From Dermatophagoides farinae (Eukaryota; Arthropoda; Arachnida; Sarcoptiformes; Pyroglyphidae), in the NCBI RefSeq assembly GCF_024713945.1, contig NC_134677.1:5521001-5585000 (forward strand): 64,000 nucleotides of DNA. Direction: 5' to 3'. The notes under the pieces were generated by a model. That model searched no databases. It saw nothing but the letters and a program-made list of their open reading frames with translations, and was not told the DNA's origin. Of the stretch, positions 19,934-40,161 are shown piece after piece. The number at the start of each line of letters is the position of its first letter. The first letter of the stretch is position 1. The position numbers and the translations under genes are program-made.

Positions 19934-22465
19934 ATTGATAGGCAATTTTTAATCAAAAGAATAACTCGTCGAATTTGAAATGTGATTGTATTCATCTGTT
20001 TTGTATGTTCTCATATGAATTTTAAATTGAAAAAATAAGAAAATTCAAAAAAAAATCAATAAAAAACCACTTTTTTAGTTCAGATATGATTCATAATGAC
20101 ACATAAATGAAACTCGGAAATCGGTTTCGAATTTTTTTTCCTGACTATCCTTTATGATGATCATTTTATAATCGACGTCGCAACAAAAAAAAATCATTTT
20201 CAATGTTTCTGCATATGCTATCTGAATGTTGATGTATTTGTTCGAAATGATAATTTTTTTGTTTTGTTTATTTCGTCAAAACATTCAAATATTAATAAAA
20301 CATTAGCCGCATTGTTTATCTGCTTGTGTGTCTATTTGAATGCAACCAATGTTACGGAACAACAGTCACAATTTGAAACAAACAACGAATAATATTTCTA
20401 TTTTTTCATTGGTCATTATGTTTTGTATAGAAACATCGGATACATCTAATCGTCTATCCATTCATCTTTAAGGCGAACATATTATCGGAAATTTTTTTTT
20501 TCATAACTTTTTTTTCGGAAGCAACAACAACAACAACAGCATTATATATGTAGATGGATTCGATGATGATTGAAACAAATTATTCACTTTATAAGCCATC
20601 TGTTGCATATCATATTGTTGATTGTTTAGAAATTTTTCTCCCTTAAAATGCTACCACGGTAGCCACGAATTTCTGCTTCAATGAATGACAATTATATGAC
20701 GAAGACAAGACAATATTGTTGTTGTACATACAATGCATGCCATGTTTTGATGGAATGATTGATCGATTAATCATCATCATACAAAGATAAAATACATGTT
20801 GAGATTTGAAATTATCGTTTTTTATTATTACATGACCGAACCGATCATTTCCGAAAGAATTAGGAAATCAATTGCAAATTATCATACGTCATTTATTGAT
20901 GTGCTAGATGGAATTTGTTTTTTTTAGTTACAAGATTCTTTTTGTTTGTTCGAATTTTCTCTGGCTTTTCATTAGAATCAGTTTTATTGGAAAAAATGTT
21001 TTCATTGAACAAATTCTTTTTTTTCTCTTGTTATTGTGCTCGTGCATGTAGTGATCCATCATCATAATCATCATCTTAATCCATCTAAAACTACCAAATC
21101 CTACAACATCGAATATGATGATAATCCACAAAAATACACGCAATAATTTAGCTAAAAATAGCTTTTCCATTGGCTCATCATCATCACTATGATGCGTGAA
21201 ATAAAATGAAAATGACCACAACTGACGTTAACGAACAACATAGTCGGCCGTCTTTTCTTCAATCCATATTATGATGAACGCAAAATCATGAAAGTTGAAA
21301 AAGAAAATGAAATGATATCTCACAATTCATATATTCAAACCACAACCCAAATTGTAAACGTGTGATTCGACCAATGAATGAATGAGTCGTCGGACATCAT
21401 CATTGTCAGAAAAAAAGAAAAGAAAATTGTTCAAGCTTCCCATCATTATCATCTATTCTCATCATCAAACTACCACAATGGCGATGATGATAAGTTTAAA
21501 TTATTTTTTTTTTTGCTATTGACTACCGCTTTTTCAACACTTTATATTTATCACCAAATATAAATATATTGAATCATATATAGTGTTAAAAATATCAGAT
21601 TCGAATCCTTTGCTATGACGTTTGTTGCCTATCACTATTTTAACTTATTTTGATTTTCTTTTCTTTATATATCATCGTTTACCGATAAAAAACGATAGAA
21701 AAAAATTTGAAAACATGTGTCTGGATGTGATTTTTGGTTTTTAAAACATACAATTGATTGAATTTCATAAATTTTGTAACGGAAAATGAAAGTTTTTTTT
21801 TCATTAGATTAGATTTCACTTGTCTACACAAGCGATAGTTTTTTTCAATTTGTTTAATTCAATTATTTTCTTGATTCATTAATAGTCACTGAGGTTATTA
21901 GGTTATTCAATATAACGTGATCATTATGGCTAATGATGATGATCAACATATATGTTAAATGTTTTCCGCTATTCGACATTGTATTATGAGATCGATGTTA
22001 TACAAAACATTTTTTTATTATTTCAATTGTATACAGAAAGAAATGTACGATTCCGTTTGTATATCATGTCCGTTCATCATCATTATCATCTGGATTGATT
22101 AACAACGACAACAACAACAACAACAATAATCATAATAATGGTAAGAGGAGAAGAAAAATTCTCCATAACAATTACATAATAATGATTATGGTTGATCATT
22201 ACATGGAACACTTTTTGATAATGATCATTTATTTAATTCTATTCAATTCAATTTTAAACTACAAAGAAAAAAATGAAAAAAAAATATTCAAGTTCCTCAT
22301 TCAATGGTAATGGAAGGAAACATATAAACACATGCATAAAAGACAGAAAAACACCTTTGGCATATTTGTATTTTTATATTATTCATCATCTAGATCTGGA
22401 TCCAAAATTTCAATGGGTGCCCATGTAATTGAATATTGTATGTCTATCCATTGTCTTTTTTGTCA

Positions 22466-22499
<34 letters not shown>

Positions 22500-25400
22500 G
22501 GTGGTGGTGGTGGTGGTGGTGGTGGTGGTGGTGGACACAACACCATAGACGACACCTGTCGATCAAATGAAACCATCAAATTATACTTTATCTAAAATGA
22601 TCAGTATAATTTTTCTTTTATTGTCTGTTGTTGTTTTTTTAGGCTTTTCTTGTCACATTAAAATTATTATTATTATTATTATCATCATATATCTAATCTA
22701 TATCACACATACTCTAAACACTATGTTTTTTAATAATAGCCAAATGGAACAAAGCAATAGGCATTGTTCGCAATCACACATACAATACACACACATGAAC
22801 AGTTATCGCTGCAGGTGAATTGATTGTTATTGAGATCAATTGGACACTTATAGTTGGAACTGAAATTCATTCAAGAAAGAAAAAAAAGAAACAAATTCGT
22901 GCTCTCCGATCCGATGATTTTTTTTGTTGTTAAAATTTTTATTTTCATGTTTATTGTTTTGACAAATTTTCATAACTATATTTATAAATTAAAAATCATT
23001 GTGATCATCACCGAGAAAAAAAATATGAAAAAGTGAGAAAACTATAGTATATACTATTAGTTATCACTGAGGTCGACGATGAATGGGAAACATTTTGAAA
23101 AAAAAATTGTTAATATATCTAGTTTAGTTTTGTCAACAAAATTTTACTGAAATTATTTTTACCGTTCATTTAATCGGCTGCAAAAATAGCCGATTTTGTT
23201 TTTTTTTTGTTGAAAAAAAAACAAAATTTTCATTTACTGTTGACAAGGATCATCATCTCTTTTTCTGTCCACACTATATATGTATGTGTGTGTGTGTTTG
23301 TGTTTTAAATTCGAAAACCTAGAAAAATATCACAGATATAGAATTCAGGTAAGAGATATTTTTAGTATAATACGATATATGATTTGTGATAATCATCATT
23401 ATCATTAATTATGGATGATATGATATGTTTATGCTGGCGTGCATTATTAGTTTTTCTTATTAAAAAAAAATTTTTATCATCGTTTTTCATAAGATAAAAT
23501 CACGAAGAAGGAAAGAACAGTCATTTTGTTCGATTGACCGTTTACCGACAACACGAAATTCATACTGATGCAACAACAACAACAACAACAAAATTCGTCA
23601 TAATTTTGAAAAAAAAGTTCAAAGTATTTGTCCTTGATCAAAAATCGATTATATTGACATTTTTTTTTCTAGCGCTTTTATCATTCATATATATTATCAT
23701 CAATACATATTATAATGGATTCTAACAGTATATGGATTGAATGAATGGGTAAAATATGCAAAAAAAAATCCGTTGTAATGCTCATATAAGATCCATAGAA
23801 ATATTGGTCATTATGATGTTGATGATCAATATCTTTGACCAACATCTTTTCATCAACACAATATGATTAGCAATCAACGAGCAGTATGTTATCTGTGATT
23901 CATTCATATTTTTTTTCTTTGATTTTCATTTCTGTCAATAATTTAATATATATAGAAATTGTTCAAGCAAAAATATCAACATTGACTTGATCAATACATT
24001 TATTCATTCATCAATCCTATTAAGATTCATATTATAGTCAATAATAAAAACTAAATATTTTCTTTTTTATTATTATATCAAACATGAAACATGAATGATC
24101 GAATTGACAAATTGTCGAAAGTCTTTTATCCTTGCTCTCCACATGAATATTAGATACGCCATCACACTTTATTATTATTTTTTCATTATAAGTAACCATA
24201 AATTGATCACATGCAAATGTTCAAATTATATTTGATCTTAGATTGATCATAATCTTGTATATATCGGATAGTAATAATGCAAATTCATTTTGACCAGATT
24301 CAATTATTATTTGTTATTTTTGTTTCATTCCTAATCTATTATTCAAACAAAACAAAATTCCTATTCCTATACACATATAATAATCATTGAAAATTCAAAG
24401 TTGATTATTTATCATATATTACGATTATGTTTGCCCACAAGACAATTGATTATTTAGTTTAATATAAATTTTTTTTTCCAATAACAAATAAATAGATAAA
24501 AAATCTTGACCTTTTTTTAACTTTATCTTTTTTTTCTTTTTCTTTTTATTTAGCTTTGTAAATAAACATCACATGATGCTTTATTTTATTCGACTTTTTT
24601 CCATATGATGATAACTATATCATTAGATGGCAAAAAAAACATTTTCATTTTTTTTATATTTACCTGCAAGTTTTTAGTTCATTCAGTATTATATAAGTTG
24701 GTACATCTTGTCACTTTCTATCTCTGTATCTCTGTCACTTTATGTGTCCACTTTATGAAAACTTGTTGTTTCATAAAACTAACCAAAAATAATGATGATG
24801 ATGATGATAATAAGGATGAGGATCGTATCAAAAGTGGAATTTGTTTCATTTCTCATCATCACTCATATCTTGACCATACCATTTTATTCATCCTGATAGT
24901 CAAGAGTTGGAACTCAACTGTTTTTTTTTCGTTGATTGAACAGAAAAAAAAGTTCATCATCATTATCAGACAGAGAAAATGATGATGAACATTATAGATA
25001 ATGAATAATCTTTGTATTATAATTCGAAAAATTATCCATTATTATATATTATTATTATCATATTTAATACACCTTATGTTGTATAATTTCTCTAAAATAA
25101 CTGTTTAATAACTATTTAATTATATATGATGAAGATGAGACTTTGATACTGTACAAGTTACTGCACAGAGAGAAAAATTTGTCTCAAGTCCAAAAACAAC
25201 TTTATCAATCTATTTATATGGAACACGAAAATTTTGGAAGTGAGAAATGCACATAATTGATTATCTAGCCCATAAGCATATTCATTTTTTTTGTACGACC
25301 ATATTAAAATGTTCCAGAAATATCAGATGAAATAGTTTCCAAATCTAACCACAAAATGATGATAAAAATCTTTATTTGTTCAACCTTTATTATTCAACCA

Positions 25401-26914
25401 ATAGCTTAATTTAAAATATTACAATTAAATAAATCTCAGCTTATGAGAACATGATCAAAATAATGATTTCGTTAGCAATATAAACTGTTAATATTGATGA
25501 AAATTTTCATCTAATAATTTTCTGAACATCTTGTCACTTAATATTAATATTGTTTTATTGCTTTACCACCCAACGACTGATCGTCATAGTTAATTTTCAA
25601 GAAAAAAAAAGAAAAATAATCAGGACAAAATAAATGGATAAAATAATTATCCGGTTTAATTTGTAGCATACATAACAAATGACACTTGACCATCACTATT
25701 GTATAATAAAATGGTTCGATGATCATTTGCCATGGTCATTTGCAATGAATCCATATGTTCATTAAGCCACGCGCAACATTTCGACTGACAGGTGTTTTTA
25801 AGCCGCCATAAAAATCAAATGGCATGATCTCGTTATTGTAATTGTTATGGGAATCTGTGAACCGAAGCGACATTTTGTCATTTTTGATCTACATCCTGAT
25901 GATGAATGATCATCTGAATTCAAGATGATAGCGATGATGGCGCTCATCATGTCGTTGCTCAATGGCCATATTATTTTTTCGATTCATCATATAGTCATCA
26001 TCGTCGAGTAATTGGATCAGATTGTTATCTCGTTCGGTCAAGTCATCTAGTTTTTGTCTTGTATATTATGAAAAATCCTACGTTTTTTTTGACAGAAATT
26101 TTTTTTTCGTCTCAAAAAAACCACTCGATTCATTTTGTTCGATTATCATTTGATTACATTTAGTGACAACAAAAAAAAGTGTTAAAGATGTGTTGTATTA
26201 CAAGTGATGCTCGACAAACTATGTTCATCATCATCTGGTAAAAAAAGAGTCGTGCTATAATCAAGTAACAATTTTTTTTGTCTAAAAATGTTTTCACTTT
26301 TTTCCGGTTTTCCTGAATTATTGTAATGCACATTCGCAGTAATTGTCATCAATGTTTGTTTTTTATCATATCGAAGGTTGGTGGAAGATTGCGAGAAAAA
26401 GTTTTTTTTTAAACAGAATGATCCAAAATCAAGAAGACGTTTATTCATTGATATGATATGAGAGACACACAGACACACAGTTATCATATAAAAACGAAAA
26501 AGAGTCCCTTAAGATTAAACAAAAAAAATTATTTGAGAGAAAATCCAACTATACGGATTTTGGGCATTTTTGATGATCAAATTCAAGACTGATGAATTGA
26601 AAAATGGTTGGTTTTTTATTTTCATTTCTGCACTTACCCAACAAACATCTTCATGATGATTTTCGTCACATTAAGAAAAAATATCATTGATGTTGAACCT
26701 TTTTAAATTAAAATTACAATTTATAATTTGATTTAAATTAAATTTTTATTGTTTTTTAAAATCATTCATTTATCGATGAAATAAATATTTATCGCTTGTA
26801 AACAGTAAATGTTATCATCATTATCACCGGCAATTTTTTATATATTGCAATCGTGTTTTTGTGTGATTTATCGTGTGTTAGTATCGTTTGTTCCATATTG
26901 TTATAATTAAAATA
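19934..26914. other. 7 kb gene-free block upstream of the MH2-protein gene
   Basis: No supported exon on either strand. The first 130 bases are the FKBP15 3'UTR, with AATAAA at 20058-20063. The rest is AT-rich with many short ATC/GAT and CAA triplet runs, A/T homopolymers and one striking GTG repeat (listed separately). Open frames here are short and dominated by simple-sequence residues. It may contain regulatory sequence or untranslated first exons of the gene at 26915, but I cannot point to any. Confidence 0.55.
22465..22534. repeat. (ATG)n(GTG)n compound triplet repeat, about 70 bp
   Basis: Roughly six GAT/ATG triplets pass straight into about 16 perfect GTG/GGT triplets. This is the longest pure repeat and the most GC-rich tract in an otherwise very AT-rich block. 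One frame reads as poly-Asp followed by poly-Gly inside an 87-codon frame. I take this as an accidental open frame because its flanks look non-coding. Confidence 0.97.
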
Positions 26915-28805
26915 ATGATTTCACGACGAAAAATTATATCAAAATCAGAAGATTCTTCCTCGAATTCTTCATCATCATCTGCATCATCATCATCTGATAA
27001 TCTTTATAAACATCCAGATGTTCTTGATCAATATCTTGTGAATAAAAATGTTGAAGAAGATCCCTATGTTGGTGATGTTGATGATGAAGATGGCGATGAT
27101 ATTGACCATAATAATATTCATGATGATGATGATGATGACGACGAAAATATCTGGCACGATTTTCATCAATTAATCAATGTATGTCAAATAGAAAATAATC
27201 ATATTGTGAATTTTTAATTACCAAATTTTCTTTATTTGGTTTTATATTAAATAGGATCAATTGCAAGAAATCCGTAATAAATGGAATCAAATCGATGATG
27301 AAATATGGGCTAAAATTATCTGCTTCGAACGAAATCGCCGTGTAGCCAAAGCATATGCTCGGTCACAAGTCATATCGATTACTGGTTCCGATCGTGGATT
27401 CGACGGTTATCGTATTGGTTTGAATGGTTTTCCCAATCCTAAACGTGATTTTGAAGTACAAATGATTAAACAACAGATTCGTTCGGTAAATCCGATTCAC
27501 AAACTTTTATAATTATAGTCTACTAATAAAAAATTTATATTATACAAAAATTTTTTGACTTAGGGATTCAAATTAAAAATTGACGATCTAGGTAATGTTC
27601 ATATAAAACGCATTGGTCGATGTCCTGTGTTTCTTGGTCCTGGTATTCCGGTTGGAAATTCGGATTATTATTATTCCCAGCAGCAGCAGCTTCAACAGCG
27701 ACAACATGAACAGAGCATGATTGCGTTGGAAATGAATAAACCACGAATGATATTTGATTTTAAAAAATTCCAACAATCTATGATTTCGATATTGTCTCAA
27801 CAACAACAAACGCCATTAAAGAATTCTGGACAACGAATGAATCCGTTTCACAACTTATCGTCATCATCATCATTAGAGAATCAATGTGTGCATCACATAC
27901 AATTAATGGCTGATAATGAAGAACATCATCAATATCTTCGACATCCATGCTGGATATTATTGATCAACATTGTTGCGTTGGATTTATTTTGGTCAAAATT
28001 CAAACTTAATGGTGCATTCAATCCAGTTATTAGTCGTAAATTATTCACATCAGAGTTAGCAACCGATCATCATTGTAGGGTACCATTAAAGGCTAAAAAT
28101 CCGTTATATGATCCATGCGAGGATGATTATTTTGAAAATAATAATAGCCATAGAGACCATTGTTCGAATCATTGTTTAAATCTACGTGAGAAAGTTTCTG
28201 ATGACCTATACTATTGTGGTTATGCTGCCAAAATATCAAATTCATCAAATCATCGACAATCATCGTCAACCACTATTGCCAAACATTTATTATCTTCAAT
28301 ACCCATACATTCATCATCAAATATTAGCCCGATAAAGAATGGTAGTTTAGAAAATAAAAAGCTATCAGCTTCAGCAACGGCTATAACGACAATGCCCATA
28401 AAAACTAAATCCCGTTACATACCTCTACGGCCGAATCCAATGAAGCAGTTGCCAACATTCAATCGAATTGGATTGGAACAAAGTAAACGATTATTTTTTT
28501 CCTCACATCAATTATCCAATGGTCAAATAAATGAACATCAAGACTTAGCTGTCAAGCATTCAGATGATAAAATTAAACATGTCACATCGTTGAAAAAATA
28601 TTCATCATCAAATCGTTCGAATTCAAAATATTCATCATCATCATCGACATCATCGTCTTCCACAACATCATACAGTCCTCATCATCAACGATTTAACCAC
28701 AATCATAACCGCCATCACCACCAGAATCGTTTTTGTACATCATCCAAACTACATTATCGAATGAAGCAAACATATCGTTCTACATGTGACCTGTTATCCA
28801 ATTGA
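26915..28805 (+). CDS. Expansion/Rebuf-like MH2 (SMAD-like) domain protein
   Basis: Exons 26915-27178, 27255-27485 and 27564-28805, all phase 0, give 578 residues. The N-terminus is a Ser run and then a long Asp/Glu-rich stretch. Exon 2 and early exon 3 hold a conserved block: ERNRRVAKAYARS, ITGSDRGFDGYRIGLNGF, NPKRDFEV, then GFKLKIDDLGNVHIKRIG. This is followed near residue 293 by HPCWILLINIVALDLFWSK. From memory this pattern matches the MH2-type domain of insect Expansion and Rebuf, proteins that shape tracheal tubes, which is not the same as receptor SMADs. Gln, Ser and His runs sit between and after these blocks, and the C-terminus is basic and low-complexity. No MH1 domain and no SSXS tail are present, so a classical SMAD role is unlikely. 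The family call is moderate; that the gene is real is near certain. Confidence 0.7.
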
Positions 28806-29865
28806 ACTTGTAATAGAATTTTCAAATGTAAACTATGATCAAATTCATTCATTAACATAAAAATCATCTGTATTAACAACTTACACTTGCATGCACACAA
28901 ATCCATCGATCCTATCGCAATGTCCATTCAAAATGGATTTATTCGGTTTTTGTTAAACACAAAATAAAGAGAAATCAAAATTGCTCATGAAAAGATAATG
29001 AATGTGTGTGTGTGTGTGATTTTTTCCATTTTTAATTTTGTTGTTTGTCTACACAAAACAAAAAAAAAATCATATCTACCTAATTTTGACTGAAAAAAAT
29101 AATTGATAATTATGATAAATAAGCTTATTATGGAAATTGTGATGATGATAATCATCTAATGGAATCTTCTTACATTATTCGCTGTAACACGAAAAATGTA
29201 ATTAGCTGTTTCCTTGATTCACATTTTCTAACAATTGTAAATTAATGATTAAGGCACCTATTTCTTTCAATGAGTATGCCTGAAAAAAAATTATGAAATG
29301 AATATCTAATTTGTAATACTATGAGACCATAATTTGAGAATGAAACCAAAATATTCCCATGATTAAATTAATTAATGATTAAAAAGAATAGCTTTCATCA
29401 TTAGCATTATAAATGCAAATGTTTTAGACACTATAATATATCTGAAGCAAATTAAGTGTTCGCGAACATCAAAAACTTTTCCGTTCACAATAATATGAAA
29501 CTCGTTTTCAATTGTTATTGTTATAGATGGTTTATGCTTGTAAAGCCAGATGAATCACCAAGTAGAATAATGAAGCTTTTATTGCAAAACGACCAACAAA
29601 CGTTTGATCGACGTATTTATAACCATACAATTTGATGATTTGATGATAATCATCACCATTACAAGCGTGGGTAGGAATTTTAAATTATAGCAATGAATTA
29701 TTAATTCAATGCAGTAGATGGCAATATCATCGTTTTTCGTAAAAACCATCGCCCATGCACCATGAGCGAGTCTATTGCTCAATGTATTTTTCACCGAATC
29801 GTGCATTTATTCCATATAAATGGTATTTGCTAAATAAGTTGTGCAGAATGTTTTACATCGGCCTT

Positions 29866-29949
29866 GTTGTTTAATCATTGGTTCGGGCAACAAAAGTTTT
29901 TTGGCCAAAAATTTTTTTATATCGATTGATGAGGTTTTTTGTCAACATT
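29866..29949 (-). repeat. Left arm: 84 bp inverted copy of TUT1-like coding sequence
   Basis: Read on the minus strand, these 84 bases match 30219-30302 on the plus strand with two mismatches and no gap. The matching bases encode residues 40-68 of the TUT1-like protein. The similarity stops abruptly at both ends. The arms are separated by 269 bp containing the promoter-proximal region and the gene's start codon. A transcript covering both arms would fold into a near-perfect hairpin. Confidence 0.97.
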
Positions 29950-29974
29950 ATATTGTAATTATAAATTTTCAAAG

Positions 29975-30013
29975 TTGACGATAAATTCATTTCACTAAAT
30001 AAATTATCGTCAA
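29975..30013. repeat. Small hairpin nested between the inverted repeat arms
   Basis: TTGACGATAA at 29975-29984 pairs perfectly with TTATCGTCAA at 30004-30013 across a 19-base loop. It sits inside the spacer of the larger inverted repeat, about 90 bases before the TUT1-like start codon. It may be chance in AT-rich sequence. Confidence 0.8.
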
Positions 30014-30100
30014 TCTCACAATTTAATTATTATTATTAATTTTTTATTTTATTATTATTTAGTATATTCAAAACGACTTAATATATCATACCCATTCATC

Positions 30101-31234
30101 ATGGTTGAACCTCTTAAAATACCAGACTTCATCATAGAACATCCTAATTTATCTGAAGAAGATCGCCAATCATTAAAGGTTGAAGAATTCAAAAAATTAA
30201 TTGCCGCTGTCAAACTAAAATGTCGACAAAAAATCTCATCAATCGATATAAAAAAATTTTTGGCCAAAAAACTTTTGTTGCCCGAACCAATGATTAAACA
30301 ACGTTGCCATATGGTGCAACAATTGGAAAATGCTTTATGTAGCCAAGGATTCTCCTGTAAATTGCAAATATTCGGTTCGATTGGCTGTGGTTTAGCCTTC
30401 AAAGATAAATCTGATATTGACATATTTGTCCGTGTACCTGACATACGTTTTGATCGTCAACCTTTAAAGTATCGAGCGGAAAATTTCGAAAACATTCGCA
30501 ATAAATTTCGTTCAATGCGATCGATATTTCGTACTCATGAAGATACACTATTTCCATACAATGTATTTATTGAAACATTGTTACAACGAAAAATGCGCGT
30601 TCCCTTACTTCGTTTGACCATATTCAGCGATATTTGGGAATGTAATCAATACCTAGAATTGATACGATTATCGATTAAATGTGATTTAAACGTTAATTGT
30701 GCCCTTGGTTTGGCAAATACTCGTTTGATACGATTCTTATGTCAATTGGATGCCCGTTTTATGTCAATCGTTCTACTTGTTCGTTTATGGCTTCGAAACA
30801 TTGTACGCGAACGAATCCTATTATCATCGTATGCTGCAACCTTATTGGTTTTATTCTATTTTCAACAAAAATCTATACTTCCAGCCATTGACTATCTCAT
30901 TAAACTCTCCAGATCTCCTTATCCTTTATACACAAACACATGCCGTACGGATTTCTGTACGAACATAGATATTGTGACACAACATTTTCCTCATGATATT
31001 TGCGACGAAAATGTTGCCCAATTATTCATAGGTTTCTTTAAATTTTATTCACAATTTGATTTTAACTCCAATTTTATTTGTACACATACAGCCAAGATAG
31101 TCCCGAAAAATTATCCATCCGATGTCGTCGAAGTTTATGATCCATTTGATATGACACATAATGTTACGGGACGTGTAAATATTGAAGGAATGGTTCGCGA
31201 ATTTATTGATGGCTATGAATCTTATAAAAATTAA
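30101..31234 (+). CDS. TUT1-like non-canonical poly(A)/uridylyl transferase
   Basis: RNA 3'-nucleotidyltransferase of the DNA polymerase beta superfamily, 377 residues from a single exon. The catalytic core is intact: Gly92-Ser93 (FGSIGCGLAF), the Asp105/Asp107 pair (KSDIDIF) and the third Asp195 (KCDLNVN). The PAP-associated part follows (LANTRLIRFLCQLD, RLWLRN, LSSYAATLLVLFY). The final YDPFDMTHNVTGRVN, near residues 346-360, closely resembles the DPF-SHNVA-NV signature of TUT1/Star-PAP. The RRM and zinc finger of vertebrate TUT1 are absent. Whether it adds U or A cannot be read from sequence. An ATTATTTAG just before 30061 could be a 5'UTR splice acceptor. Codons 40-68 are duplicated upstream in inverted orientation (29866-29949). 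Confidence 0.82.
   Translation: MVEPLKIPDFIIEHPNLSEEDRQSLKVEEFKKLIAAVKLKCRQKISSIDIKKFLAKKLLLPEPMIKQRCHMVQQLENALCSQGFSCKLQIFGSIGCGLAFKDKSDIDIFVRVPDIRFDRQPLKYRAENFENIRNKFRSMRSIFRTHEDTLFPYNVFIETLLQRKMRVPLLRLTIFSDIWECNQYLELIRLSIKCDLNVNCALGLANTRLIRFLCQLDARFMSIVLLVRLWLRNIVRERILLSSYAATLLVLFYFQQKSILPAIDYLIKLSRSPYPLYTNTCRTDFCTNIDIVTQHFPHDICDENVAQLFIGFFKFYSQFDFNSNFICTHTAKIVPKNYPSDVVEVYDPFDMTHNVTGRVNIEGMVREFIDGYESYKN
30219..30302 (+). repeat. Right arm of 84 bp inverted repeat, inside TUT1-like CDS
   Basis: Coding counterpart of the inverted copy at 29866-29949 (two mismatches). This arm keeps the reading frame and has family-like sequence either side, so it is taken as the original and the upstream arm as the copy. 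Confidence 0.95.
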
Positions 31235-31488
31235 TAATAATAATATTAATTAATTAAACACATTTAGACTGATTATTCAAACCCATTATAATTTATTATA
31301 TTTATTTATTCATACTTTCATTCATATTTCATAATATTTCAAAATTGTTTCATTGACAATAGACTGAAAATTATTTACAAAATTGCTAACTTGTAAGATT
31401 TTAATAATAAAATATACGTAATTTTAGCTGATGATCGAAATGTGTTATTTAAACTGGATATGCCATAAAGTTTATCTTTTTTTTTTAT

Positions 31489-32540
31489 TTATATCGATGA
31501 TGATGAAGATTGTTTTGTTGGTATGGTTGATAATGATGATGTACTAAAATAATGATATGGTATCAATGTATCTTGATCAAAATATCCATATGTTTCTTCC
31601 TCTTCTTGGCTTTTGTTTGTTGACAATGATATTGGTTTATTATACAGAAAACGATTAATCGGCTGGGTTATTCTTTTATCTTCGAGTTCTGTTGTCGATA
31701 ATTGTTGATGATTGGAATCGTGATCAAGAGTTAAACTATGATGATGTTTTTGGTGTTGATTGACAACAGCCGAAGCTAGCTGTTTGAATGCATCCTGTTC
31801 ATTAATAGATAATGGTGATGGTGATGCTGATGATTGTTCGTTTTGTGATTCAAATTGGGAAACCGAATATGGCAATGTTTCTGGAAATAAACCTGGTGGT
31901 GGCTTTTCGCCAATTTTAATCAATCCCAATGATGGATCGCGTTGAACTAAAAGCAATGTGGAAATTTTGTTTTGTTTATGAAACGAAATTTTTTTTTCAA
32001 TCTTTATCACTTACTTGTAGTAATTTTATTCGTATTAATCCCTTTATTATTGACATTTGGCAACAGTAACATTGATGGTATTTTTCCAAACAATTTTTGC
32101 ACGAAATTTACACGTGGTCGGCTTGAAGGTGGCGGTAAAGGTTGTATTGATAATAAAGTTGCTGGATTAACATCCAAAGTTTCCACTGCTGATGATGGCG
32201 GAGAAGTGGGAGAATGTAATAAGATTGGTAAGCCGGAAATGGAAATTTGATTAGAATTCTGTTGTTGTTGTTTTTGCTCTTTGTATATTGTATGAAGTTC
32301 ATTGAATGTCTGTATAGTTGATAATATCTGCTTAATGCTGACCAAGGCTTTTAAACCATTATTTAATAATTCGATGGTGTTTTTATCAATTTTGATTGAC
32401 GGTGCTGTTTGCACGATTGGTGGCCATAATAACCATGTACAACAAATTATTAATATCATGTATGGAATATAAATTCGTGAAGTGGATATATTGTTGTTTT
32501 TATAACGACGATCATCATATTTGAGATAACATAGCTTCAT
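31489..32540 (-). CDS. Secreted protein of unknown family
   Basis: Exons 32540-32015 and 31946-31489 on the minus strand (donor GTAAGT, acceptor TTTTAG) join in frame to 327 residues. A basic, Asn-rich start is followed by a hydrophobic core (MILIICCTWLLWPPIV) ending in QTAPS, a good signal peptidase context. Translation could also begin at that internal Met near 32459. Just after the signal lies an amphipathic helix-like stretch (IELLNNGLKALVSIKQIL). The remainder is Pro/Ser/Gln/His-rich and probably disordered, with a short KIGEKPPPGLFPETLP segment. There are no mature cysteines, no obvious repeated peptide and no dibasic peptide ladder, so a neuropeptide precursor is not supported. I do not recognise the family. 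The gene is convergent with the TUT1-like gene, 254 bp between stops. Confidence 0.72.
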
Positions 32541-34266
32541 CGTTTTTATAATTGAATATTCTGTTGTTTGATAAAGAATGGTGAATACCGATTCAATGAA
32601 AGTGAGATAATTATAATCACTCTAGATAATTTCATAAAATCTTATGATTGACGAGAATGTTTGTTAGTTGATCAATAGCAACTACCCGATGCTCAACGAT
32701 ATTACCCAAGACCTTAACGATTTATCCGTATAATTATGTTTGTGTATAAGTAGAAAATTCTCTCGATTTTTTCTCTCTTTGTTTGTACGTCGTTTGTTTG
32801 TCAAAAAGCGGTTTGTTTTTTCCTTTCTTATTTTTTCATTTTTGAATCGTATACCATTATCAACTTCATCACTGTCATCATCAATGCTGTTTTTATAAAA
32901 TATAAGAAAAGAATAGAAACAATTAGAGTGAGAGTAAGAGAAAAAATAGAAAAAATTCACCTGGTCATCAACCGTTAGCCATCATCCATGATAATAGTGG
33001 CGATCATGGCCAGTAGACCTTTTTATGATAACAACGAGCTGTCTTAGAATGAATCGAATATGTTCACATCACAATCATCCATTTTATCGTCCATACATCC
33101 ATTTAAACGCGCGAACTCACTATAATCTTGTAATGAATCTATTTTCATTCAATAATATATGATTGTGCTATTTTTGGTTACCTTTAGATATCTCGCCAGT
33201 AGAAAGAAAGAGAGTTTTCTCCATTGAATCTATATATCATTAACATCATAATTGACCAACTGGCCAAATTATTGAAGAGAGACAAGAAAACCATATATAC
33301 AAATAAAAATGTGCTCCCAATTCTCTTGCTTTTGCTATGGGTCAATGTCTATTTGTAATGTTTGAAAATTTGTGGTTAACAACCAATGATGTTGATTGTT
33401 AGTTTTTTTTGTTTTGTTTTTTCTCACTCCTCGTATCTCACTTTTTTCATAAATGACTCGATTTTTTATTTGTTTGTTTGTTTGTCTCCCTATAAATATA
33501 TGAGCAAAAATGTCGACGACAATGTTGATGATGTGATTTTCGTCAACTCAGCAACTACAGGTGTAAAATCTACAATAAGAAAACTCAACTTATTTTGGCC
33601 ACTTGTTTGATGTTGGTCATTAACAGCCAAGATGGTGATGATTAACACAAAAAACTCGGTTAATAAGTATGAGAAAGATGAATTGAAAGAGAGAGAGAGA
33701 GTAGGTCAGATCAGCCTCATAAATATAGGTAGACTTAACAAGTATAGAATGATAGACACGATTGATGGCGATGTCATTTGTTTGTCGTTGTACAATCGAA
33801 GATGTGAATCGAATGACCATGTTAGGTATAGAGGAAAAATCATCATTCAATAAACATGTGATATTATTATCTGCAAATTTTTTCCTATTAATAAAGGAAA
33901 AAATGAATTTTTTTTTCAAAATTGGACCAACAGGTGGTTTCGGTGGTCGATCACATCATTTTATTATTATCATCATATAATTTATAATTGTATTTTTGTC
34001 ACTTTTAACTACGTAGAAATGATGATGATGAATCAGCAATTTGTTATTTTTTTAAATTATAAATTTGAACAAAAACAGATGATCAATCATAAATCAGTTT
34101 GTTGTATCAAGAAAGAAATAATTAGTTTAAAAAAAACAAGAATGATAAAAAAAAATATAATTGTATTGCAATGCACACACAATGCGAGATGATTGATATT
34201 GTCTTCTTATTTATTAAAGAGTCCGATTACACCGACCCATTTCAGGGATTTCACAATTCTATTCTA
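32541..34266. other. Intergenic, nothing recognised
   Basis: This lies between the starts of the secreted-protein gene and the 3' end of the MOSPD2-like gene, both on the minus strand. Open frames on both strands are short and low-complexity. There are no repeats beyond short homopolymers and a GAGA run near 33690. Promoter sequence of the secreted-protein gene is expected at the left edge. Confidence 0.5.
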
Positions 34267-36082
34267 CTATTGTAATTTAATCAATTTTTGAAAATGTTCT
34301 GTCAATCTTTTTAAATCCTTATCGCTTTTGATGACCAATTTTTTTGTATCACCATTACCGGTTGACATTTCTTCCAATGTTGGTACACCTTTTGGTACAA
34401 ATCGATAATCTTTACCACAATAGCCACCCATGTAATCTGGCAGATTAGATGCTTCTATATACTGGACAATATTGTCGATTGTTACAAACCGTACGATACT
34501 TTTAGCCTCTTCATCCAGCCATGATCGTACTAAACGCCATATTTGATTCAATATCCATGGAAGTTCGTAAATATACACGTATGATATGGCACCTAATCAC
34601 AAACGATATTTTAATTGAATGAATTTTCATTGTATCATTTTTAACATACCAGAATAATAATTTGATAAAGTATTTATTATGAAACGAGCCATATCAATGT
34701 CAACATTTGACAATGATGCTTTCCAACAATCAAATATTAATGCAAATCCTTGGTTTGGATGTTGGCTGACAATTTTCTCAACAACATAGATAAAAAAATT
34801 TCGAACCATTGTCTCAATCGATGCTACACCGACTGGTTCTTTTCGATTGAAACGCATACGTAATATAAGTATATTTTTATTCTCACGATCAGGTAGATAA
34901 TGAAAACAGCCGGCAATTTGATAGAATTCGCTTGGAAAATCTGTATCTTTCCTATTTAGGTGTGAATAAAAAAAAAAATAACAATTTCAATCAGAACATA
35001 TTTCAAATACAAACCAATCATCAACAACAATTGAAATTTTTCACCTTGACCTACGCACACATACGCCCAAGTAATTTTTCACAAAAAAAATCATCTTTTT
35101 TTCTGTCATCATTTCTCAAGATAGAGAAATTATTTAAAAAAAAAAATTTTATTTGATTATTTCCAATATTGACTATTTTCTTGTAGATAAAAGCCGTAAT
35201 CGTTTTTTGAAATATTATTTATTTTTTTTATACAAATGAGATCAAAATATTAAGATTTTCAAATATTCCTTGAAAAAATCTGTCAGTGATTTTTTCTTCC
35301 CCAAATTTAATAATTGTTACGCAACATCATTTGGCATGCAAAATGAGTCTGCTTGAAATTTGATGATTGAATTGATTCGCAGCAGCAGTAAATGACCATG
35401 TTTGTTACATAATTTCGCCAATATGGCCATCATTAACATAGCAATTTCTTTTCAACTGTTACACGTCTGTTCAATAATGTCAATGTCAATGGTGCGGTCA
35501 TTTTCATTTTTTTTTATTTCGATTTAACATTGGACCTAATATCTAGTACTAGTAGTCTCATAGTTGTTCATTATGATCCAAAAGTTAAAATTTAAAAATA
35601 AATTTTTTCAGCTTCAATATAGAAAAAAAATCAGGTCAGGTGCAATGATGTTTCGATAATCAAAAATGAGACTGCACTGACCATCATCATGATCAGTTAT
35701 ATGGACATGCATACCAAGATAATAGCATAACGGGTATTTGATTATTTTTGTACTTGGATATTATCGCTTACCATTGATTGATGTTGATCTCTTTTCGCCA
35801 TAACAATGCCTGAATCATTGTTTTGATTGCCTCATCGATGGTCGTGGGTCGCCATGCTAGAAATCGCCGTATGAACCAATCATCATGAGCTTTCAATCGT
35901 TCGATATCAATTGGATCAAATTGATTCACATCATTGGATAACAGCGATTGGCGAACTTGATCAATAAATGCATTATCAAAATATTGTTCCTCACCGGTTG
36001 TAGTAGTTAATTTGTCATTTTCACTATGATTGATATTCGATTGTGATGAATTTTTCTTTTGATTATTATTTTTTGAAGGCAT
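34267..36082 (-). CDS. MOSPD2-like CRAL-TRIO domain protein, truncated architecture
   Basis: Exons 36082-35772, 34951-34650 and 34592-34267 on the minus strand (introns of 820 and 57 bp) join in frame to 312 residues. After a polar Asn/Ser/Lys-rich start comes the CRAL-TRIO N-terminal helix block (IERLKAHDDWFIRRFLAWR, then ALLWRKEININQW). The lipid-binding domain follows (FYQIAGCFHYLPDRENK, FALIFDCWKASLSNVDIDM, RFIINTLSNYYSG, YIYELPWILNQIWRLVRSWL, LPDYMGGYCG). The pattern (DDNW, WRKEI, MDFVRFIIN, MPWLMN, PPHMGG in vertebrates) points to MOSPD2 rather than SEC14 or alpha-tocopherol transfer proteins. Vertebrate MOSPD2 continues with an MSP (FFAT-binding) domain and a membrane anchor. This model stops about 40 residues after CRAL-TRIO, so ER contact-site tethering is not expected. 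Start chosen at the first ATG; an in-frame GTG lies three codons upstream. Confidence 0.85.
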
Positions 36083-37929
36083 TTTTGTCACAATTTTCGC
36101 TGAATTTTATAAACTTAACTTGAAACCACAATTAAGGCACCGACACAATAGAAGTATACGAAAACAACTTTGTTTGACTAGCTTGTATTTGACAATAATT
36201 GACAAATCATCATTGTCATGTTACCTGCGAAGAAGTTCTATTTTTTATATGTTCACTATCATTGATTCAATCAATCAATTTAATTAGTATCATTGTTGTT
36301 CACATACAGTAACAAGAATCTTGAAAAACGATGGTCTTTGATGATAATCAATGATGAGACTTTCGAAATGATTTGCCATTAATAAACATCATGTGTTTGT
36401 CTGTATGTGTCTGAGGATGGTAAAAATAAACCCGATTTAAGCAAGAGACATGTTTTAATCTAGAGAAAGAAAGAGAAATAGATAAATGTTAAGAGTTATT
36501 TGATGGTCGATGACGCCGAATTTTTGTCTCACTTTATCATTTAAAACCTTTTTCTTTCATCTGAATCTATCAAGGATTCATTCATTCAGCATTGCTCTTT
36601 TATTTCTACACAGAAACGATCAAATGTCCAAATCATTACGAATGAGAACAATAACATTAATAGGAATGCTGTTCTCTTAACATATTTTTTTCGAAATAAC
36701 ATTTCATTTCACTTGATCGTAGCTACTTTAACATTGCGACACTTTTTTATGATGATCATTAGATTTTCAATTTCTTTTTCGTTGATTATAATCTAAATTA
36801 TGACGATGATACGAATGATGAGTGATCGTGTGCATATTTCATATCATAAACGAAGCAATTATTTCATTCACTTTTGTGCATACTGAATGTCCAAGGTGAA
36901 AAATTCATTCTGTCCATTTTTGAATTCAAGACCATTATTTTTTCATTGATTTTATTTTCTCTTTCTCTTTAATTTATTTGCCTAGCTATTTTTATTTCCA
37001 TTTTTTTCATATTTGTATAATAATTAACATTATATTTGTTGCCTCAATACTTGAAAAAAAAGAAAAGTTTCGATAGAGCTAATGAATTGCTAATATTTGC
37101 ATTTTTTTGCGATTTTATTCATCAATACGTTTGTATTTGGCTTTTATGGCCATTGTCTTTATTCGTTGATCATTATGATAATAATCATCAATTCGATGTC
37201 AAAACACTTGAAGTTCAAGTTTTCATATCTACATAGTATATCATTTTCATGATACGGAAGTGAATTATGATTGGCGATATTGAATTGATCTATGTCATAA
37301 ATCCGTTGTTTTTCTTACAGTGATGACTATTTTTTTTTTTAACAATCACGATCCAATCATACAGGCCTATAGGCACATAAGAATTATTATGACCCGTATT
37401 AGCATATACAATGATGATCTGATAGATTCATCTTTAATGGAACCCGTTATAATTGTAATAACAATCGCATAGACAATAAAACTACAGTCGGAAGTAATAA
37501 ACAAAATCAATAATAATTTTGTCACATTATGAATGGATATTCAACATTGAAATTCTCTTTATACTGATTTTGAAAAATGTACGCGATTATCTTCATCTCC
37601 ATCTTCATTATTATTTTTTTTTTCATTTTTGATGGTCGAGTTTGAGTATCATCATTATTTCATAATTATTATCATGAAATCGTTTTGTTTAGTTGGCCTT
37701 AGTTGACCATTGACGATAAAGATAATTATTAAGCCATGTGAATTGTTTTAATAATAAATTATTTTTATGAACTGGAACTACATTTAGTTCTGAATTTTTT
37801 TTTAAACAAACAATTTTTTCTCAAATGTTCGATTAAATATGATTATTTATTGAATTTCTGTATTTAAATCATTTCAATAATATACCATATCGATTAGCTA
37901 AATAAAGGAACAGAAGCATAATAGAAACA
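36083..37929. other. Intergenic, nothing recognised
   Basis: Divergent spacer of 1.85 kb between the MOSPD2-like gene and the four-helix protein gene. It is AT-rich with poly-T tracts and short tandem ATGAT-like runs. No exon, repeat family or RNA gene is seen. Confidence 0.5.
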
Positions 37930-38484
37930 ATGAAAGAATTGTTTCAATCGACACTTAAAACAATCAAAAATTCTTCATCCAAATTAATTAGAGAAAAATA
38001 TCGATCGACAATAGATTGGAATAAATTCTTATTTGGTATTCTTCGTTTGATTCTGTTAATTATCGTTCTCATTAATTTGACTTTTCATTCTATTTATTGG
38101 ATCAATTATTCCAATCAACATTCATTTGAAAATGATCGTGAAAATCATCTAGTAATGGCCGTTTTCATAACGATATTTCTGATAAATCTCATTCTAATGA
38201 TATTGACATTCAATGATTCAATCAAAACATTGATTGTTTGTTTGGTCATCGCATTCATTGATCAATGGTTTATCACACGTGTTTCGTTAAAACATGGCTT
38301 ATATCGTTTATTGATTGGTTATCATTCATTTCTTATCAACATGTTAACCTATGCTTGTTTCATCGTTTATTCGATTATAAGATTAGTTAAACTTAACGAC
38401 GATTACAATGCACAAACGGCGAAGAATCGTGCAATAGATCATAGTATAACTGACACCACGCCTACAACGGACATTAATTCTTAA
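37930..38484 (+). CDS. Four-helix membrane protein, unknown family
   Basis: An uninterrupted 184-codon frame with four hydrophobic helices: about residues 34-56, 74-93, 98-115 and 125-151. The N-terminal 30 residues are basic and the C-terminal 30 are polar (Asn/Thr/Asp-rich). Helix loops are short, except for one polar loop of about 15 residues between helices 1 and 2. The layout resembles small tetraspan proteins such as the MARVEL or DUF-type groups, but I see no tetraspanin CCG motif, no claudin W-GLW-C-C motif and no other signature. It is intronless, unlike most neighbours. Regular hydrophobic periodicity and a clean ATG (ACAATGAAAG) support it being real. No function is assigned. Confidence 0.72.
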   Translation: MKELFQSTLKTIKNSSSKLIREKYRSTIDWNKFLFGILRLILLIIVLINLTFHSIYWINYSNQHSFENDRENHLVMAVFITIFLINLILMILTFNDSIKTLIVCLVIAFIDQWFITRVSLKHGLYRLLIGYHSFLINMLTYACFIVYSIIRLVKLNDDYNAQTAKNRAIDHSITDTTPTTDINS

Positions 38485-38870
38485 AATGCAATCATTTTCA
38501 ATCTAAAATCAATCGATTTGATGATGAGTAGATTAAATATTTTTTATTTAACCTCAAATCTTGTTATTTTCAATGTGATTTTGCCCATGTATCTATGATA
38601 AGATTAAATTTCCCAGGTAACAAGAGATCTCACGCAACCATTCAAGAGTTTTATTTATCAAAAAATTATTTTGATATTTTATTATGATATCGGATAAATA
38701 TGACACCCAGTATAATCCCATTCTTTTTTATTGAAATAATACATCAATTTCCATTCGATAAGAAATTGTTACCGAAAATTTATTCTTCTTGTATGTTTGT
38801 GCATGTGTGCTCAATCTTTTGATTTTGTTTTACCATAAGTGTAAAATTGACAGATTTTCAAGAAAGAAAA
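38485..38870. other. Intergenic spacer
   Basis: 386 bases between two plus-strand genes. AT-rich, with no recognisable element. The right end should contain the promoter and 5'UTR of the next gene. Confidence 0.5.
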
Positions 38871-39837
38871 ATGTCATCTTTTTCCAAAAAAATTATTCAT
38901 CTTATTGTAATTCTTTGCACATTTTCAGGTAAAAACGTAAAGTATTTTCATACGAAATTCTAATCATTCAATAACAATTACAGGGATAAATTGCTGGAAT
39001 GATAGCGAAGAACAAGAACAACTTTCGAAATTGATTCATTCATTCAATCAATCAATGAGTATTCGAAATGAATTACTTGGAATAAATAAAACCTACTATG
39101 ATATTGTCGAAACAAATCATATGGAATTACTTGGCCGACCAGAACCAGATTTGAGACCGATAATTGATTCCTTTTTGAAAAACCTTCAAGAAATTCAAAC
39201 AAAATTGAAAGATTTTCATAAAAGATTTCATTGGTTGCGCGAAAAAATGATGCTAAAATCAATTAATCGAAGATTTAATTGTCTTGAATATGAAGATGAA
39301 ATTATCGCTTTAAATGATAGTATAACCATGGTTATTGATCAGTTAACACCATATCGAATAAAAAATGCAGCTCTTCCTTCAAGTGGTTTTGATTCACAAA
39401 TTTTGAATCAAAAATTGTTCAAATTCAAAGAGGACTATCCATCGTATTCCGATATGGAAATAATTAGACGAGAATTCATTACACTTGATAAAAAGATTAA
39501 AATTTTTCTTGAAGACCCGACAAAACAATCACAATTGATCGAATTTTTGGAAAATTCATTTCAACATTCTGAACGCATTAATCAAGAATTGGATCGAATT
39601 CGTCAGGAGACATTCGTTCAAGCCAGAACACGTGCACAACATATTCCAGTCATAATAGATTATAATCTTGTTTTTATCAGTCGAATGCATCGAGATGTAT
39701 GGAATATAAGTCGAATGTATTTGGATAAAATTAAATCTGGTGCAGATCTTTCAAGTGCATCTCAAACTATTCGATTGGAAAATCTTGGATTAATGCTTGC
39801 CATTATTTTAATGATCATCACTAATTCTTGCATTTGA
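38871..39837 (+). CDS. Secreted helical protein with hydrophobic C-terminus, unknown family
   Basis: Exons 38871-38928 and 38984-39837 (55 bp intron) join in frame to 303 residues. Exon 1 is almost exactly a signal peptide (KKIIHLIVILCTFS); cleavage near GINC is likely. The mature part is rich in Glu, Lys, Ile, Leu and Arg with heptad-like spacing and only one or two cysteines, so it is probably an all-helical bundle. The last 20 residues (NLGLMLAIILMIITNSCI) are hydrophobic up to the stop, as in a GPI-anchor signal or a tail anchor. The family is not recognised. The terminal codons and 3'UTR are partly duplicated immediately downstream, and the second copy lacks the segment coding for this hydrophobic end. 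Confidence 0.82.
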
Positions 39838-39973
39838 TAAGTAATCAGTGATTGTGTTTCTTTAAAGGTGTATAAAACAAAAATTTCAATAAATGTTTCA
39901 AACTATTCGATTGGATAAGTAATCAGTGATTGTGTTTCTTTAAAGGTGTATAAAACAAAAATTTCAATAAATG
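39762..39973 (+). repeat. Tandem duplication of a gene 3' end with internal deletion
   Basis: Unit 1 has an 18 bp block at 39762-39779 and a 60 bp block at 39836-39895. Both recur exactly in unit 2 at 39898-39915 and 39914-39973, where they are joined directly. The roughly 56 bp between the blocks in unit 1, which encode the hydrophobic C-terminus, are missing from unit 2. Each 60 bp block spans the end of the CDS or 3'UTR and contains its own AATAAA (near 39889 and 39967). Exact identity suggests a recent event. Confidence 0.95.
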
Positions 39974-40161
39974 ATTAAAGTTAAAGCTAGATGTCGATGT
40001 AGATTCTTTCAAAAATCATGTTCATAAATTAATTAATTTTTAGTGCCAAGAATTTTCATAAGATGCCGCTACTTTGGAATGTTTTAGATTTTCATGATAA
40101 TAATAAATTGAGTTTTCTTATTCACCACGTCATAACGTGCGTGTAAATCCATAAAATAATC

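Follow-up and report, generated by a model that had tools for sequence, protein, structure and literature searches.

The nucleotidyltransferase gene and its inverted repeat

The window analysed here, a stretch of 64,000 nucleotides (C1:5521001-5585000 of a 9.17-Mb contig), carries a Cid1-family nucleotidyltransferase gene on its + strand and, a short distance upstream, an inverted copy of 87 nt of that gene's coding sequence. The following features are referred to below.

28963..29019, + strand: AATAAA poly(A) signal with a GT-rich tract after it, likely marking where an upstream + strand gene ends; the left arm lies about 900 bp further on (sequence signals)
29866..29952, - strand: left arm, a derived, non-coding inverted copy of nucleotidyltransferase codons 39-68 (repeat search, assembly search, alignment, substitution analysis)
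29960..29992, + strand: predicted core promoter, with TATAAAT at 29960, a TCATTT initiator at 29987-29992 and a start at about 29989 (motif scan; prediction)
30101..31234, + strand: Cid1-family nucleotidyltransferase gene, 377 aa, frame uninterrupted (Pfam MTPAP-like_central, PAP_assoc, NTP_transf_2)
30216..30302, + strand: right arm, the ancestral coding copy, codons 39-68 (repeat alignment; the distant paralogue L005 aligns from residue 38)
30257..30270, + strand: TTTTTGGCCAAAAA, a perfect palindrome of 14 bp at the centre of the right arm (read from the sequence)
30694..30772, + strand: coding stretch with a 79-bp sense copy on contig C6 (1158388-1158466; record L007 1539-1617) (DNA search)

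The three Pfam families matched in the open reading frame (PF22600, PF03828 and PF01909) all scored above the Pfam cut-offs, placing both a nucleotidyltransferase core and a PAP-associated domain in the product. Among solved structures the product comes closest to TUT7/TUT4 and plant URT1, followed by CutA, GLD2 and Cid1. The best match was TUT7 (E 5.1e-20), and Star-PAP, which we take to be the same protein as TUT1, was weaker (1.4e-7) in this ranking among solved structures. A preliminary description had called the gene 'TUT1-like'. The label is too specific given these two scores, and 'Cid1-family nucleotidyltransferase' is the safer name.

When reverse-complemented, 29866-29952 matches 30216-30302 in 84 of 87 bases (97%), with 263 nt between the arms. 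The mismatches fall at 29934, 29944 and 29950, so that positions 1-68 of the repeat are perfect, and the left-arm counterpart of the palindrome lies at 29898-29911. The right arm runs from the second base of codon 39 to the first base of codon 68. The preliminary description had given the copy as 84 bp with two mismatches; 29866-29949 contains exactly two, and the full repeat extends to 87 nt. It had also described similarity that ends sharply and arms that flank the start codon and a presumed promoter. Both statements agree with what we found: similarity breaks off abruptly at both ends in the 40-bp flanks inspected, and the ATG at 30101 and the predicted core promoter both lie between the arms.

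The inverted repeat is confirmed. Within 28501-32500, exact inverted matching reaches 68 bp at its longest, whereas 200 sequences simulated under a first-order Markov model gave a mean of 14.2 bp and never exceeded 24 bp, which rules out a simple chance origin. When 29840-30330 was used as the query in a DNA search of the whole assembly (62,435,336 bases, 22 contigs), the arms matched each other at E 1.4e-33, and apart from these matches and that of the query to itself no third copy was among the matches listed, all such counts being lower bounds. No further long repeat partner turned up in the window, a tRNA search of the whole window found none, and 28800-31600 gave no Rfam match. A repeat family, transposon or MITE was considered as the source and rejected, as the assembly search listed two places (a lower bound) and not the many dispersed copies of such an element.

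Local inverted copies look uncommon in this genome, since 70 records (329,914 bases) yielded just two inverted pairs within one record that reach 50 bp and 90% identity. The sample is small, roughly half a per cent of the genome, and its records were non-random, partly overlapping and in many cases fetched for other reasons. The two are the pair described here and a transposon-like 463-bp pair in record L064. Seven duplicate records, covering the focal place or L007, had been omitted from the sample, and low-complexity filtering was on. L063 and L069 contain weaker inverted pairs (68-85%), and the window itself has short simple-repeat pairs. The transposon-like inverted repeat in L064 (8-468 / 1197-1656) is about 460 bp long with 94% identity and belongs to a multi-copy family present on several contigs, as does L007 2981-3126, continuing into L070 1-236. 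Elsewhere in the window, 39832-39979 contains a 70-bp tandem duplication with 96% identity and 78-bp spacing. The genome also encodes a homologue of group 2 mite allergens, matching the structures of Der p 2 and Der f 2 at E 3e-30 to 1e-29, which together with the assembly size suggests an astigmatid mite related to dust and mange mites; searches with cathepsin and trypsin families did not narrow this further.

Direction and origin of the copy

Placed in the gene, the left-arm bases would create a TAA at codon 40, a TGA at codon 42 and the substitution I45T. Since two of the left-arm differences would be stops, and the paralogue L005 can be aligned across the right-arm residues, copying went from the right arm to the left. 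L005, on C6, shares 28% identity with the gene and aligns from residue 38, across the entire right arm. It is the only one of four other Cid1-like places (L005, L006, L009, L010) that covers these residues; genome matches to other distinct Cid1-like genes start further downstream. A working gene could hardly have carried both stops. All three mismatches are confined to the last 19 of the 87 positions (p 0.009 for that end and 0.018 for either end, both calculated post hoc). Simple neutral decay does not predict such clustering, which could reflect partial gene conversion of the inner part of the repeat, or chance.

We regard it as very probable that the left arm arose by templated insertion of a short inverted copy from nearby, and is an ordinary mutational scar that is now decaying neutrally. 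During replication or break repair, a growing strand would have switched template, copied about 87 bases near the 5′ end of the gene in reverse-complement orientation, and rejoined about 260 bp away, between the end of the upstream gene and the core promoter. Fold-back may have been aided by the 14-bp palindrome that the copied bases contain. The left-arm copy would since have been diverging, by 3 of 87 bases, as neutral sequence would. A local switch is favored over a dispersed element because only two arms were found, at this close spacing (the number of copies again being a lower bound). Recent templated insertion had been the fallback idea of the preliminary description, and it gains support from the lone nearby copy, its sharp edges and its polarity. 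No clear microhomology was visible by eye at the junctions in the 40-bp flanks, a feature that is frequent but not universal.

A one-off local event leaves a second short copy of the same gene unexplained. The sense copy of 30694-30772 on C6 is identical at 75 of 79 positions (95%); a further 13 bp is collinear upstream, with about 18 bases missing between, although this extension is at chance level (E 0.33). Its surroundings are mixed, combining pieces 78-89% similar to places on C4, C6, C7 and C10 with multi-copy repeats, and a 146-bp repeat near the copy forms part of a transposon-like inverted repeat. Among the 38 matches listed for query 20001-40000, a listing that omitted the window's own place and the inverted arms, it is the sole match of at least 60 bp with more than 90% identity. 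Intron loss in the C7-like neighbour of the fragment was considered as proof of an RNA origin and rejected: the first gap is coding-like, and the second comprises exon-like sequence as well as an intron-like stretch. That one genome should contain two short copies of the same gene is curious, and may be a coincidence.

Two other origins have been weighed against templated insertion. Reverse-transcribed pieces of the gene, captured through RNA templating or in association with a transposon, could have given rise to both the left arm and the C6 fragment, and the position of that fragment among repeats and pieces resembling other loci is what such a process might leave behind. The coding frame has no intron to lose, however, so the usual test is blind, the C7-like piece beside the fragment lacks clean intron loss, and a random insertion within 263 bp of its source would be improbable; we consider this origin very unlikely. 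The preliminary description had also offered an assembly error as a simple explanation. Chimeric inverted reads are known from amplified DNA, and one of these could have been built into the contig during library preparation or assembly. An artefactual copy should nonetheless be identical to its source, yet 3 of 87 bases differ and two of the substitutions are stops in the gene's frame; an 87-bp insert would, moreover, require two false junctions inside one contig. On this evidence an artefact seems highly improbable.

Possible transcription across the arms

In the 64-kb window, paired TATA and initiator motifs occur three times on the + strand and once on the - strand, and the nearest other + strand pair is at 24258. 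The pattern was picked after the sequence had been seen; in 20,000 simulated 148-bp spacers its frequency was 0.008, and that of a stricter pattern 0.0024. The gene's ATG is the first downstream of the predicted start. A 10-bp perfect inverted repeat (29975-29984 / 30004-30013; TTGACGATAA / TTATCGTCAA) frames the predicted initiator between the long arms. The upstream + strand gene has its stop codon at 28803-28805, ahead of the poly(A) signal. One of its exons, encoding an MH2 domain (27252-27506), resembles three further genomic stretches among the matches listed (73-78% DNA identity). Because the predicted start lies between the arms and the upstream poly(A) signal lies some 900 bp earlier, the ordinary mRNA should be without the left arm. 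As read from these signals, the left arm is probably absent from normal mRNA.

An RNA spanning 29866-30302 has a predicted folding energy of -155 kcal/mol, whereas 60 Markov simulations averaged -59.7 (sd 9.3), a difference of z about -10. The predicted fold of RNA with both arms contains an unbroken run of 78 pairs, one of them G-U. When RNA of the same length begins at the predicted start, its fold is at chance level (z +0.26, 60 simulations), and the capacity to form the hairpin would therefore reside only in a transcript initiated upstream of the left arm. Between 24258 and 29960, no + strand pair of TATA and initiator motifs was found that might direct such a start.

The preliminary description had proposed that a transcript of this kind could feed an RNAi pathway against the gene's own mRNA. 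Part of the claim holds: an RNA containing both arms would form the 78-pair duplex, and family searches of the genome matched the Dicer-dimer domain (4 matches), the Piwi domain of Argonaute proteins (22 matched pieces) and RdRP (4 places, 6 matched pieces). For its premise, a start upstream of the left arm, no sign was found in the sequence, and the predicted signals put the start between the arms. For self-targeting to operate, a transcript started upstream would have to span both arms and be cut by Dicer, yielding siRNAs, perhaps amplified by RdRP, that silence the gene's mRNA. In Drosophila simulans some hairpin RNAs are described as having arisen next to their progenitor genes, one of them through partial duplication of a 5′ region (PMC10317233), and a dust mite is described as using Dicer-made siRNAs and possessing RdRPs (PMC5805368); two astigmatid mites are reported to combine RdRPs with loss of Piwi-clade Argonautes (PMC5805368; PMC6211577). 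The D. simulans births keep the RNAi idea alive without supporting it here. Against it stand the predicted start downstream of the left arm, with the chance-level fold of RNA from that point, and the poly(A) signal of the upstream gene together with the lack of a paired + strand motif in the interval just given. A divergent antisense transcript across the left arm would bear the gene's sense sequence and not its antisense. All told, silencing of the gene by its own hairpin is very unlikely.

Two further proposals would give the left arm a role, and the second is compatible with an origin by templated insertion. The locus might be an 'infant' hairpin RNA at its birth, in which occasional read-through yields the duplex, RNAi equipped with RdRP could amplify it, and the C6 fragment serves as a further source of guides; we attach little likelihood to this. 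Terminal nucleotidyltransferases of the target's kind can tail small RNAs, and were such an infant hairpin RNA real the loop could be self-limiting, the target itself being a terminal nucleotidyltransferase. Alternatively, the copy could have been retained for bringing regulatory DNA to the promoter, for example TATCGATT at 29920-29927, which is presumably close to the fly DRE motif. The arm lies 37-123 bp upstream of the predicted start, but the DRE-like motif would accompany any copy of this coding stretch, and we think retention on these grounds quite improbable. Templated insertion followed by neutral divergence remains the reading we prefer.

Comparison with known systems

The locus offers a clean example of how one copying error would produce a near-perfect long inverted repeat beside a gene. 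Such repeats are considered the starting material of hairpin RNAs, and this one, if transcribed, would show the first step in the birth of a hairpin RNA gene. It also carries a caution, in that a strong fold by itself does not make an RNA gene.

With short-range template-switch mutations, as framed in the four-point model (PMC7954356, PMC8794818), the locus shares a local reverse-complement copy, a hairpin-forming repeat that would be made in one event, and sharp edges; the creation of hairpin stems by template switching has been proposed (PMC8794818). Its size is the main difference. For one gold-standard set of great-ape switches, the copied length is given as a median of 12 and a maximum of 128 (PMC7954356). 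Fold-back or templated insertions at double-strand breaks in yeast are likewise inverted duplications templated from adjacent DNA, but those described are mostly about 5-34 bp and have break-adjacent microhomology (PMC11724301), none of which is clear at these junctions. Set beside both, 87 bp is long for a template-switch or fold-back event and far above typical sizes, yet it is inside the great-ape range.

The de novo hairpin RNA loci described in D. simulans (PMC10317233) resemble this one in that a fragment of a coding gene forms an inverted repeat beside that gene. Here, by contrast, one arm is the gene itself, and a hairpin transcript would be a hypothetical one. The likeness to the dust-mite siRNA master loci (PMC5805368) lies in the setting, since both belong to mite genomes in which Dicer, Argonaute and RdRP families occur. 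Those loci are described as three, spanning 62 kb and composed of pieces of many transposons, whereas the present locus consists of a single 87-bp copy of one gene.
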